Assembly: GCF_000017545.1 (NCBI RefSeq) | Contig: NC_009718.1 | Location: 1,054,001-1,118,000, forward strand | Length of the DNA: 64,000 bases | Source of the DNA: Fervidobacterium nodosum Rt17-B1 | GTDB lineage: Bacteria > Thermotogota > Thermotogae > Thermotogales > Fervidobacteriaceae | Direction: 5' to 3' | Part shown: positions 12,235 through 63,972 of the stretch, one piece after another | Layout of the letters: each line of letters opens with the position of its first letter | Numbering within the stretch: position 1 is the first letter of the stretch | The notes under the pieces: generated by a model | Seen by the model: only the letters and a program-made list of their open reading frames with translations | Databases searched by the model: none | Told to the model about the DNA's origin: nothing | Translations under genes and position numbers: made by a program

Positions 12235-13668
12235 TCATTTTTTATATCTGAAAACAGGGTATTTTGTCGCATTTACATCATCAAGACGTCTGATCGGTGT
12301 TTTGTACGGAGCTTTTTTAACAAGTTCTGGATTTTCAATAGCTTCGTTGTATATCTTTTCCATAGCATCTATAAATTCGTCAAGTGTACGTTTGCTCTCA
12401 GTTTCTGTTGGCTCTATCATCATCGCTTCGTGAACTATCAACGGGAAGTACACTGTCGGTGCATGGAGACCATAGTCAAGTAATCTCTTCGCTATATCAA
12501 GTGTTTTTACACCAGTTTTCTTAACAAATTCTTCGTTGTCGATAACAAACTCGTGCATACAAATCCTATCGTACGCAACTTTATAAATTTTCGATAACTT
12601 TGCCCTTAAGTAGTTCGCATTCAGAACAGCCATATCACTTACATGTTTCAAACCTTTGTTACCCATTGTAAGTATGTAAGTGTAAGCTTTAACCATAACC
12701 GTGAAGTTACCGTAAAAGCTTCTTACCATTCCTATGCTCTTTGGTAAATTGTAATCTAAATCATACTTTTCGCCAGCTTTTCTAATTACTGGAACTGGTA
12801 AGTATGGTGCAAGGTGTTTTTTAACACCGATAGGTCCGCTACCGGGACCACCCATTCCGTGTGGCGTGCTAAAGGTTTTGTGTAAATTCAAATGGACAAT
12901 ATCAAAGCCCATATCACCAGGTCTTGTTCTGCCCATTATTGCGTTTAAATTCGCTCCATCGTAATAAAGTAGCGCACCAACTTCGTGTGCCATTTTTGCT
13001 ATTGTAAGTATATCTTTCTCAAATAAACCTAATGTGTTAGGATTTGTAAGCATTATAACCGCAACATTTTCATCGAGGTGTGCTTTTAGCTCTTCCAAAT
13101 TGACACAACCATCTTTTCCTGATTTCAATTCCACGACTTCAAATCCTGCCATGGCAGCCGATGCTGGATTTGTACCATGTGCGCTGTCTGGTACAAGCAC
13201 TTTTCTTCTCTTATCAAGCTCTCCTTTGTCTTCAAAATAAGCCCTTGCAACAAGCAATCCTGTCAGTTCTCCGTGCGCTCCAGCGGCTGGTTGTAAGGTC
13301 ATGTCGTCCGTACCAGTTATCTCGCAAAGCATTTCTTTTAAATGCCCCATGAGGTCTATTGCGCCTTGAATTGTTTCTCTTGGTTGCATTGGATGAAGTT
13401 GCGTAAACAACATTGCCATATCCTCGTTTATCTTAGGATTGTATTTCATTGTGCATGAGCCAAGTGGATAAAAGCCTTTGTCGACGGAGTAATTCTTAGA
13501 TGCAAGTTCCGTGTAATGTCTTACGACATCGACTTCGGAAACTTCTGGAAGTAGTGGTTTTTCTTTTCTTACAAGATGTTCTGGTATACCACAATCAACA
13601 CTTGGCAATTCATATTCGGGTAATTCATATCCTTTTCTTCCGGATGTGGATTTTTCAAATATGGTCAT
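12235..13668 (-). CDS. gcvPB: Glycine dehydrogenase (decarboxylating) subunit 2
   Basis: A 477-residue C-terminal half of the P-protein of the glycine cleavage system, which decarboxylates glycine and passes aminomethyl to lipoyl-GcvH. The PLP lysine lies in [18 protein letters not shown], and other typical stretches are [12 protein letters not shown] and [13 protein letters not shown]. Bacteria and archaea with split P-proteins encode PA and PB as separate adjacent genes, as here: its ATG overlaps the gcvPA stop by four bases. Length matches the split family. Confidence 0.96.
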
Positions 13669-14999
13669 TTTGACATCACCTCGACTAATCTTTCAATGGA
13701 AGCCTTGGTGTTAACTTCTGTGGAACAGACCAAAGCGCTTGGACCAAGTTCTTTGTAGACTCTATCTATTGGGATAGGACCTAATATACCATCTTTCACC
13801 ATTTCATGCCATTTCTGTCTGTATGTCTCTGGTACCTTTACAACGAATTCATTGAAGAATTCACCATTGAATATTCTTGAAAAGCCTCTTTCTTCAAGCT
13901 TCTTTGCTAAATAATGTGCGTTGTTGTAAGAGCGCCACGCAACTTCTTTTAGTCCCTCTGGTCCCATCGTTGAAATATATATCGCGTTGATTAAAGCGAT
14001 ATACGCTTGGTTAGAACATATGTTTGATGTTGCCTTTTCTCTTCTGATGTGTTGCTCCCTCGTTTGAAGTATCATCACGTATCCTTTGTTTCCTTCCAAG
14101 TCTTTTGTTTCACCTATTATTCTTCCGGGCATCTTTCTAACATGCTTTTCAAGTGTTGTGAAAAATCCTATTCCAGGTCCACCAAAGTTTGGTGTTACAC
14201 CAAGTGATTGTCCTTCTCCAACCACGATATCTGCGCCAAACTTTCCAGGTGCTTCAAGGAGCGCAAGAGATACCGGTTCAGCTACAACTATAAACATTAC
14301 ATTCTGTGGAATAACTTCTCTTATCGCTTTTAAGTCTTCGATTACACCAAAGAAATTAGGATAAGCTATTGCAACAGCTGCGGTTTTATCATCAACACTC
14401 GATTTTAATTTTTCGATATCAACTTTTCCACTTTGGTCATAATCAAGCTCGTGAATCTCAATTCCTTGTGGTTTTGTATAAGTTTTTGCAACAGTTCTAT
14501 ATTCTGGATTTATTGTCTTTGCAACAACCATTTTTGTCTTGCCTGTAACCCTAACGGCCATTAATAAGCTTTCAGCAAATGCGCTTGCACCATCATACAT
14601 CGATGAATTTGCAACTTCCATGCCCGTTAGTTCACACATCATTGTCTGATATTCAAATAACATTTGAAGAGTACCTTGGGAAACTTCAGCTTGATAAGGT
14701 GTGTAGGCGGTTACAAAATTAGGATTGGAAGCCATGTGTTTTACAACTGTTGGGATGTAATGATAGTATATACCTGCACCAAGGAAGATATTTTCAGGGT
14801 CAAAGTTGATATTTTTCTTAGAAATACCCTCAACAAATTTTCTAACAGTGAACTCATCTTTTCCTTCTGGTATATTGTAACCATCTATCGTTTTTGGGAC
14901 GTCTACAAACAAATCATCTATACTTTTAACACCTATTTCTTCAAGCATTTGTCGGATTTCTTCTTCGGTATGTGGAATATATCTATGCACATTGTTCAC
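13665..14999 (-). CDS. gcvPA: Glycine dehydrogenase (decarboxylating) subunit 1
   Basis: A 444-residue N-terminal half of the split P-protein. Recognisable stretches are [17 protein letters not shown] at the N terminus, [42 protein letters not shown], and GPGIGFFTT. It forms a heterotetramer with GcvPB, which carries the PLP. It follows gcvT by 24 bases and overlaps gcvPB (ATGA), so the three subunits are co-expressed. Confidence 0.96.
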
Positions 15000-15023: not shown

Positions 15024-16316
15024 TTATTTTCTTGACCTTACGCTTCCTTTGTAGAATGGTGTCTTGACAACTAAAGCATCGACCATCTTATCCCTGATTG
15101 CTATCTGTACTTTTTCATTGAGTTTTACATTCGCATCGATCATAACAAAAGCTATTGGTTTTTCAAGCGTAGGAGAGAATGTACCGCTTGTTACATAACC
15201 TATTTTTTGACCATCTTTGTAAACTTCCATATTGTGTCTTGGCACGAGCTTTCCTTCGATAACTAAGCCTCTTAATCTTCTCTTCAAACCTTCTTCCTTT
15301 TGTTTAAGCAAGACTTCTTTACCAAAGAAATCACCTTTTTCGAATTTTACTGCCCAAGGTATAGATGCTTCAAGAGGTGTAATTGTGTCATCCATATCGT
15401 TACCATAAAGAAGTAATCCTGCTTCAAGTCTTAAAACATCTCTTGCACCTAAACCTGCGGGTTTTACACCTATTTCTAATAATTTTCGCCAAACGAATGA
15501 GGTTTGATTTGCGGGAATGTAAAGTTCAAAGCCATCTTCTCCGGTGTAACCTGTTCTTGAAATAATACCTCTCACACCGAATATTTCTCCTTTTTTAAAT
15601 GAATAATATCCAATTTCTTCAAGGTCAAAGTTAACATGAGGTTGTATTTTTTCCTGAGCTTTTGGACCTTGTACAGCAATTAATCCTGTTTCATCGGAAA
15701 TGTTTGTCAATTTAACATTAAACTTTTCAGAGAGTTTTAAAAGATGATTAAAATCTTTATCTATATTTGCAGCGTTTACAACGAACATGACTTCTTCTGG
15801 AGCAATTTTGTAGACAAGTAAGTCATCTACGAACCCACCATTTTCATTGCACATGGCTGTGTAAATTATGTCACCGTAGTTGATTGAACCGAAATCGTTT
15901 GTTACCACATAATTTGCAAATTTCACAGCGTCTGGTCCTTCACATATGAATTCTCCCATGTGAGATACATCAAACATTCCAACTTCTTTTCTTACCAAAT
16001 GCACTTCTGGAATGATACCTTCATATTGGAGTGGCATATAGTACCCAGCAAATTCAACTATTTTAGCACCAAGCTTCACATGGTCTTCGTATAATGGAGT
16101 ATACTTCACTGTTTTTCCCTCCCATTGGATAAGTTCTATTGCCTCGCTGTATTTATCTTCGGGCACAAGTATTTCACATTGAACACTGCTACCAAATATA
16201 GGGTGAATAAAAACGTCCGTTTTTTGAACTAAAACGGGTATATCATGAGAATTTAATAATTTTTCAATTATTCTTGCTTCTATTTCACCAACGGTTGTTG
16301 CAACAATTTTCCACAT
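15024..16316 (-). CDS. gcvT: Aminomethyltransferase GcvT with N-terminal DUF2007-like domain
   Basis: A 430-residue protein, about 65 longer than ordinary GcvT. Residues 73-430 are a complete T-protein, which transfers the aminomethyl carbon from lipoyl-GcvH to tetrahydrofolate: TPLYEDHVKLGAKIVEFAGY, MFDVSHMGEF, GYTGEDGFELYIP, LGARDVLRLEAGL, and the SGTFSPTLEKPIA end. Residues 1-66 are an added small domain with the pattern of DUF2007 (putative signal-transducing, ferredoxin-like fold): WKIVATTVGEIEARIIEKLL, a NSHDIPVLVQ strand, and CEILVPEDKYSEAIELI. The ATG at 16316 has AGGAGA upstream and the fusion is in one uninterrupted frame. It is the first gene of gcvT-PA-PB-aminotransferase. No glycine riboswitch is seen upstream. 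Confidence 0.93.
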   Translation of the reverse strand: MWKIVATTVGEIEARIIEKLLNSHDIPVLVQKTDVFIHPIFGSSVQCEILVPEDKYSEAIELIQWEGKTVKYTPLYEDHVKLGAKIVEFAGYYMPLQYEGIIPEVHLVRKEVGMFDVSHMGEFICEGPDAVKFANYVVTNDFGSINYGDIIYTAMCNENGGFVDDLLVYKIAPEEVMFVVNAANIDKDFNHLLKLSEKFNVKLTNISDETGLIAVQGPKAQEKIQPHVNFDLEEIGYYSFKKGEIFGVRGIISRTGYTGEDGFELYIPANQTSFVWRKLLEIGVKPAGLGARDVLRLEAGLLLYGNDMDDTITPLEASIPWAVKFEKGDFFGKEVLLKQKEEGLKRRLRGLVIEGKLVPRHNMEVYKDGQKIGYVTSGTFSPTLEKPIAFVMIDANVKLNEKVQIAIRDKMVDALVVKTPFYKGSVRSRK

Positions 16317-16366
16317 AAACAGTTCTCCTATGAGTATTTTTTTTGATTTTCTTCAGTTCTAATTAA

Positions 16367-16432: not shown

Positions 16433-17728
16433 TTATTCTTCCCAATAACGTTTACTAACAATTTTCAAATGTGAAGCATCTTTTTTATATCTTCCTACCT
16501 TTGCACATGGTTTTCCATTCACTTCAACTATATCCGCTGTTATGTCGATTTTCTTCTTCAATAGTTTCGATCCAACACCGTAAACATCAGCTGGTACACC
16601 TAACGATTCGAATAATTTGATTTTCTCTTCGTCAAAACCACCTGAAACAACTATTTTCAAATCTTTCAGACCCACTTTATCAAATTCTTGTCTTGCTTTC
16701 CATACAAGTTCTGGACATACACCAAACGATTGCGGACCTATGGGTGTTACTGATTTGTCCCTTAAACTTCCAGATGTATCAAATCTGACACCCCAAATTT
16801 TATTCTTACCCGGTCCTATAATCGGTGAAGGATCTGTTTCACCAAGTATGAATTCTTTACCCATAACGTATTCATATTGTTTCTTAACAACCCTAAACGT
16901 TGTACCAATGACATCGTTATCCCAATCAACTAAAACTATCCTATTAACGGTTTCCGGCATATGCATATCAAACGCAATTGCCGCGTCCTCTGTCTTACCA
17001 TCGTATGCGGCAATTAGCGCGTGCGGAATTGTGCCCATCGATTCTACGCCCCAATAATCTGCATTCGCATCTGTTGAGACACCAAATGCCCCAGCTTTGA
17101 GCGCTGCATAGCCATCAGTTGCTTGGACCCAGTAATGGTCAAATCTTGCACTGAAGAATAATATAGGCTTACCATTTGCTGCCTCAACGACTTTCTTAAC
17201 TGCCGTTGCTGTGCTTGTAGCCCGTGCGATAACGCCCAGTAAAACTGTCTCAAGATAACCAAAGTATATTGGATCACCTTCTATCGTCATTAAAGGTTCT
17301 CCATCCGGAACGTATTCACCATCGTAAACCGCTTTGACTTCTATTTCATCCCATTTGTCTACCCAAAGCTCGTTGAGTTTTAATCTCAAATCCCACTTTT
17401 TTCTCGTCAGTTCAACTATTTCTTCGACGTTACCTTCCACAGATAAGCTCTGCATCATTTTATCCAGGTTTAAAATCTCATTGTAAAGGTATCTTGCTTT
17501 TTCTTCATCTTTGTAATAACCTGTGCAGTATCTCAAGACAGCAAGAGCTTCGTCCACACCACAGACAATTGCGTTATCCCTTGGGAAGAATTGGTAATAA
17601 ACTCTTGGGTGCCTGTTGTCTTTTTTTAGCACCTCAACATATCTTGTAAAGTATTTATCAGAATAGTATCCCATCCTAATCCTATCAATTGGTACTTTAA
17701 AAACCTTCGGATGAAGTCTCTTGCTCAT
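16433..17728 (-). CDS. pncB: Nicotinate phosphoribosyltransferase
   Basis: A 431-residue type II phosphoribosyltransferase-fold enzyme, making nicotinate mononucleotide from nicotinate and PRPP in NAD salvage. Recognisable stretches are FFPRDNAIVCGVDEAL, a middle region with VLLGVIARATSTATA, FDHYWVQATDGYAAL, GTIPHALIAAY, and the phosphate-binding end VSGGFDEEKI plus YGVGSKLL. Length and motifs match the thermophilic branch of the family. Its ATG overlaps the stop of the upstream radical SAM gene by four bases. Confidence 0.93.
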   Translation of the reverse strand: MSKRLHPKVFKVPIDRIRMGYYSDKYFTRYVEVLKKDNRHPRVYYQFFPRDNAIVCGVDEALAVLRYCTGYYKDEEKARYLYNEILNLDKMMQSLSVEGNVEEIVELTRKKWDLRLKLNELWVDKWDEIEVKAVYDGEYVPDGEPLMTIEGDPIYFGYLETVLLGVIARATSTATAVKKVVEAANGKPILFFSARFDHYWVQATDGYAALKAGAFGVSTDANADYWGVESMGTIPHALIAAYDGKTEDAAIAFDMHMPETVNRIVLVDWDNDVIGTTFRVVKKQYEYVMGKEFILGETDPSPIIGPGKNKIWGVRFDTSGSLRDKSVTPIGPQSFGVCPELVWKARQEFDKVGLKDLKIVVSGGFDEEKIKLFESLGVPADVYGVGSKLLKKKIDITADIVEVNGKPCAKVGRYKKDASHLKIVSKRYWEE

Positions 17729-63609: not shown

Positions 63610-63972
63610 ATGAAAAAGTACGCAAAAACTCACGAATGGTTCGATACAGAAACAGGTTTGGTAGGAATTTCTAATCATGCTCAAGAACAACTTGGCGATA
63701 TCGTCTTTGTTGACCTCCCACAGGTGGGGAAAGAAGTTAAAAAAGGGGAAGTAATACTTTCATTGGAAAGCGTTAAAGCAGCAGGCGATGTGTACGCACC
63801 AGTTAGTGGAAAAATCGTTGAGGTAAACGAAAAAGTCAGCGCAACACCGGAGCTTGTTAACCAAGATCCAGAAGGTGAAGGTTGGCTTGTAAAAATCGAA
63901 CCAACTAACCCATCAGAAATTGAAGAACTTCTTACAGAAGAAGAGTACAAAAAAATATTAGAGGGGGAATAA
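63610..63972 (+). CDS. gcvH: Glycine cleavage system H protein
   Basis: A 120-residue lipoyl carrier shuttling the aminomethyl group between P and T proteins. The lipoylated Lys is in ILSLESVKAAGDVYAP. N-terminal KKYAKTHEWFDTETGLVGIS and the C-terminal EGWLVKIEPTN match the family at full length. Start ATG has AAGGAGG upstream. The gene lies about 47 kb from gcvT-PA-PB. Confidence 0.95.
   Translation: MKKYAKTHEWFDTETGLVGISNHAQEQLGDIVFVDLPQVGKEVKKGEVILSLESVKAAGDVYAPVSGKIVEVNEKVSATPELVNQDPEGEGWLVKIEPTNPSEIEELLTEEEYKKILEGE

Follow-up and report, generated by a model that had tools for sequence, protein, structure and literature searches.

Does the long open reading frame (ORF) at 15024–16316 (minus strand) of the window, the whole 64,000-nt stretch of Fervidobacterium nodosum DNA analysed here, encode one fused protein, or also a free enzyme nested within it? 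By translation, Pfam and NCBIfam, its 430 aa comprise a DUF2007 domain and a complete aminomethyltransferase, the T-protein GcvT. An in-frame N-terminal addition of about 66 residues with the DUF2007 pattern, ahead of a complete T-protein, was the core of the original prediction, and the profile searches bear it out. The domain (residues 1–66; 16119–16316, minus strand) is matched by PF09413 over residues 2–64 (E = 2.6e-6, 27.9 bits, in a Pfam search with the 430-aa protein), above the curated gathering cut-off of 25.7 bits, and the N-terminal 70 residues alone score 32.9 bits (E = 7.2e-8). It is joined in frame to GcvT, with no stop between them.

The enzyme downstream is whole. GCV_T (PF01571) spans residues 75–322 (E = 1.3e-94; profile positions 1–255 of 255), GCV_T_C (PF08669) residues 346–423 (E = 3.4e-24; positions 1–80 of 80), and NCBIfam recognizes a full GcvT at residues 69–426 (NF001567, 484 bits against a threshold of 300). 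Residues 2–362 of the Thermotoga maritima T-protein 1WOO align end to end with ORF residues 71–428 (E = 4e-125); because the alignment starts from residue 2 of 1WOO, the enzyme needs no extra domain to be complete. The solved T-proteins (1WOO and 1WOS from T. maritima, 3A8I from E. coli) thus resemble the ORF from residue 70 on, including the GG..DD motif, but differ from it in starting at about ORF residue 69–70, with nothing before. Both aspartates of that motif, D164 and D165, are unchanged in 70 of 70 GcvT sequences; with the offset of 69 in residue numbering taken from the 1WOO alignment, D165 corresponds to D96 of the T. maritima protein, which is taken here to be its catalytic Asp.

The arrangement is not peculiar to this genome. 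In a search of 103 Thermotogota genomes for GcvT and DUF2007, 100 gcvT loci were fetched and 99 were testable (that of G033 is cut off by a contig edge). In 95 of the 99, DUF2007 comes immediately before gcvT on the same strand: fused in frame in 30, so that a survey of GcvT N termini across the phylum finds the fusion to be no one-off; as a separate abutting or overlapping gene in 62; and in 3 (G018, G025, and G046) as a domain below the search threshold, recognized by a profile built from the phylum's own sequences. The separate pairs are tightly spaced, with gaps of at most 35 nt (61 of 62 within 30 nt) and overlaps in 40. Wherever found, DUF2007 gives a single match per Thermotogota genome. 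In G010 and G011 another gene sits between it and gcvT, and in G008 and G009 it is located elsewhere in the genome. The intervening gene in the first two (loci L154 and L148) is an ORF beginning MCRMVAFIS or MCRMVGFIS, about 750 to 50 nt ahead of gcvT, which looks by eye like a class-II glutamine amidotransferase. A further observation concerns G003, where a second, more distant GcvT-like gene (C104:3899–4998, about 41% identical) is hit as two segments that lie in adjacent frames.

Outside the phylum the pairing was not found in the samples taken, which are samples rather than a census. Among 80 DUF2007-bearing genomes of other phyla, mostly one per family, 72 also had a gcvT match, and in 0 of these 72 were the two adjacent. 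As an outside control, 78 named gcvT loci of many other phyla, returned by a search with the full alignment, were examined; none had DUF2007 within 1.5 kb upstream, in a scan that found all 7 of the Thermotogota loci used as positive controls. The tie between DUF2007 and gcvT is therefore strong, specific to Thermotogota, and nearly exclusive in these samples: the DUF2007 genes of the sampled bacteria from other phyla do not lie beside gcvT, while those of Thermotogota are coupled or fused to it. This phylum-wide pairing suggests that DUF2007 is a dedicated partner of the T-protein.

Mapped onto a GcvT-core tree (a quick search, midpoint-rooted), the fused state requires four changes, of which well-supported branches force at least three. 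The simplest reading suggests three gains (in family f1 and in two clades of f10) and one re-splitting (G080), hence about three independent fusions. The codon phase of a GGAGG motif at the junction differs as well, being 2 in f1 and in G054 and G055 and 0 in the other f10 clade, which argues for separate origins. At four loci with separate genes (G088 and G097–G099; L082, L081, L084, and L085), DUF2007 and gcvT share a reading frame, interrupted by one stop codon immediately ahead of the gcvT start; these junctions are one mutation short of fusion.

The GGAGG motif bears on the opening question directly, and raises a point overlooked in the original prediction: there is a second start at V70. 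The long form has a Shine-Dalgarno sequence visible in the DNA (AGGAG, 16325–16329, minus strand), 7 nt ahead of its ATG (16314–16316). Within the junction, GGAGG (16118–16122, minus strand), conserved at the nucleotide level, is followed after an 8-nt spacer by an in-frame GTG (16107–16109, minus strand), the first codon of a free T-protein and GTG in all 11 Fervidobacterium-type fused ORFs. The predicted short product, of 361 aa (15024–16109, minus strand), is the part that aligns end to end with 1WOO. Among the fused Thermotogota ORFs, 28 of 30 have GGAGG and an in-frame ATG, GTG, or TTG 7–8 nt on, exactly at the T-protein start. By comparison, such a signal is carried by 24 of 7659 in-frame starts (0.3%) in other long ORFs, a background drawn from the fetched gcvT loci, and elsewhere inside the same 30 fused ORFs there are 2. 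In G077, GGGGG takes the place of GGAGG; in G052, GGAGG is present without a start at a usable distance. The internal starts in f10 are mostly TTG, a weak start.

Codon usage across the junction is informative about what is being conserved. Setting aside the start codon and the Met and Trp columns, the only columns among the 430 codons of the 11 Fervidobacterium-type ORFs that always end in G are 65, 66, and 70; the chance of all three always-G columns falling within this 6-codon stretch is about 1.6e-6. Residue 65 may be W, E, K, or G, with the third-position G fixed throughout. Of 19 invariant Glu columns, column 66 alone is GAG in 11 of 11 ORFs, the next best being 7 of 11. In the AT-rich f1 genera g3–g5, where G is the third base of 6.7% of codons, 7 of 8 ORFs keep AAG GAG at the junction. 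Judged by these codon columns, conservation at the junction acts on nucleotides, not residues. In many species pairs synonymous sites have come close to saturation, so ancestry alone is insufficient to account for the conserved signal.

These observations weigh against a plain gene fusion, in which all T-protein would carry DUF2007 as an allosteric sensor, as first proposed, and the internal start would be an inactive relic of formerly separate genes. Such a reading would fit an ORF open across the junction in 30 genomes, a DUF2007 with a start and Shine-Dalgarno sequence of its own, and the apparent loss of a usable internal start in G052. A relic would be expected to decay, however, and here the GGAGG and start bases are invariant despite near-saturated synonymous sites; Glu columns elsewhere do vary, and codon 65 keeps its fixed G through changes of amino acid. 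That every T-protein bears the domain is accordingly improbable, since the conserved internal signals point to a free T-protein too. Translation starting near residue 70 was also what the original prediction had named as telling against it, if found in RNA; it is indicated here by sequence and not by RNA evidence.

The long form, too, is under selection, as its start and the substitution pattern of DUF2007 indicate. All of the fused ORFs carry a start codon at their DUF2007 end, with a recognizable, usually weaker, Shine-Dalgarno sequence, and ribosomes starting there would make the fusion, since no stop intervenes. Predicted accessibility is similar for the two starts, the mean unpaired probability of the internal Shine-Dalgarno sequence (0.63) being about that of ordinary starts. 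This matters for a further possibility, that DUF2007 is a translated leader whose translation opens the gcvT ribosome-binding site by coupling, the domain itself mattering little. The overlaps in 40 of the 62 separate pairs do suggest translational coupling, but with accessibility of this order no opening seems needed. Moreover, the protein is conserved, with a defined predicted fold: finite dN/dS values for DUF2007 in f1 pairs are 0.03–0.19 (the value for G048/G050, a length-offset artefact, is left out), and the domain is under purifying selection. It also persists in G008 and G009 despite having moved away from gcvT. A mere leader role is thus very unlikely.

The reading preferred here, and considered probable though well short of certain, is that of a nested two-start gene derived from a coupled pair, making both DUF2007-GcvT and free GcvT, with DUF2007 as a dedicated partner of the T-protein. 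At the level of sequence, the domain, its pairing with gcvT, the fusions, and the conserved internal start are secure; that both products are made from the one gene is probable. The ATG at 16316 would give the 430-aa DUF2007-GcvT protein, and the internal GTG at 16109, served by a separate Shine-Dalgarno sequence, the free 361-aa GcvT. The ancestral state in Thermotogota would have been a translationally coupled pair, DUF2007 then gcvT; in about three lineages the DUF2007 stop codon would have been lost and the gcvT ribosome-binding site kept. Most Thermotogota would then have DUF2007 working in trans; here it would act in cis, on a subset of the T-protein.

What the domain does is less clear from its likenesses. 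AlphaFold2 models it alone as beta-alpha-beta-beta-alpha (E-H-E-E-H; mean pLDDT 80.6), with low confidence in a loop at about residues 31–45, and the same secondary-structure elements appear in the full-length model, where a linker of a few residues leads to the T-protein. The supposition of an independently folding N-terminal domain thus finds support, both models giving it a ferredoxin-like fold of its own. PF09413 itself is described as a “putative prokaryotic signal transducing protein,” and the domain resembles that family in its above-cut-off match, its order of elements, and a conserved FG motif, which lies in the low-confidence loop. A structure search with the domain model gave weak matches (E = 0.03–0.2, none at or below 0.001), including GlnZ and DarA (E = 0.04–0.2), GlnK, and the solved structure 2HFV (E = 0.033). 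There is thus a distant fold resemblance to PII/GlnB-like proteins (GlnZ, GlnK, DarA), but the DUF2007 chain is shorter, the scores are weak, and it has no identified nucleotide-binding motif. Because the matches are weak and include EscJ/PrgK ring domains, which score slightly better in the same search, the PII-like interpretation is no more than a lead. The domain has no identified ligand site, and sequence searches for a PDB homologue, with the domain and with the family profile, gave chance matches only. In those parts of the literature that a full-text search returned for the name DUF2007, no function is assigned to it.

The surroundings of the fused gene offer some further clues. Next in its operon is gcvPA (glycine decarboxylase subunit 1; 13665–14999, minus strand), which overlaps by 4 nt with gcvPB (subunit 2; 12235–13668, minus strand). 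The gene for the lipoyl carrier of the glycine cleavage system, gcvH, is at 63616–63963 on the plus strand, opposite to gcvT-gcvPA-gcvPB and 47 kb away. In most Thermotogota genomes the operon goes on with gcvH-gcvPA-gcvPB or gcvPA-gcvPB; in 10, the DUF2007-gcvT pair stands apart, with gcvH, gcvPA, and gcvPB on other contigs, showing that DUF2007 follows gcvT and not the whole system. Directly upstream of the fused gene is one with QRPTase (nicotinate phosphoribosyltransferase-like) domains (16433–17728, minus strand), a homologue of which precedes gcvT in 20 of 20 loci of the family.

Earlier studies suggested that T cannot induce the conformational change in the H-protein without its N-terminal region (PMC7733448, citing Okamura-Ikeda, 2003). 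A domain at this end could plausibly alter H docking. DUF2007 would most likely be a small domain of ferredoxin-like (PII-like) type, with a regulatory or assembly role, at the T N-terminus, a region needed for H-protein docking, where it might tune the handling of H-protein or folate by the decorated T-protein subset. Allosteric control of the T-protein through a putative bound ligand, as the original prediction envisaged, is plausible in outline; regulation by DUF2007, its putative ligand, and the docking mechanism are all speculative. Taken further, DUF2007 might be a Thermotogota-specific regulatory subunit, with two competing ribosome-binding sites setting the ratio of regulated to free T-protein in three lineages, so that sensor-bearing and bare subunits would be mixed; this is a tentative possibility, with the balance somewhat against it.

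Alternatively, DUF2007 might be not a sensor but a tether or assembly factor, holding T near the H- or P-protein or stabilizing it at high temperature. Such a role is a rival to the sensor reading and not to two starts, with which it is compatible. It would suit a domain that tracks gcvT alone, and 30 of 30 fusions are at loci with no gcvH adjacent to gcvT. That correlation, though, rests on 3–4 events, and a tie between fusion and the absence of gcvH from the operon was rejected as not significant on the tree; the interface, too, is putative. A tethering role is on the whole rather unlikely.

The allosteric reading had also been offered as the explanation for a missing glycine riboswitch. The absence itself holds: no glycine riboswitch reaches the Rfam threshold in the window, a local scan included. 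However, 15 loci sampled across Thermotogota yielded none either, and since these include loci with a separate DUF2007 gene, the fusion does not account for the absence. A weak 6A RNA match upstream (19.4 bits against a cut-off of 41.2) was dismissed as noise. A terminator-like stem in the DUF2007 coding region (16217–16237, minus strand) is not kept in other Fervidobacterium-type ORFs, and so is treated as due to chance.

Genes with two in-frame starts in one ORF, and a domain found in the long form only, are known: infB, encoding the forms of IF2, and clpA, encoding ClpA and a short form (PMC13245402). Like DUF2007-gcvT, infB uses an internal GUG (PMC13245402). The present case differs from both in its apparent origin, by loss of the stop codon between two coupled genes, about three times, and in involving a metabolic enzyme.

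The fused feature is more informative than was first proposed, being a phylum-specific partner of the T-protein that has been joined to the enzyme several times. For DUF2007, a phylum-wide and nearly exclusive tie to one well-studied enzyme supplies a definite partner to examine. More generally, what looks like a domain fusion can conceal a second product, and annotation of the long ORF alone would mislead both the design of protein constructs and statements about regulation. Should both forms be made, these Thermotogota would offer a simple natural system in which a regulatory domain is dosed against its enzyme by translation initiation.
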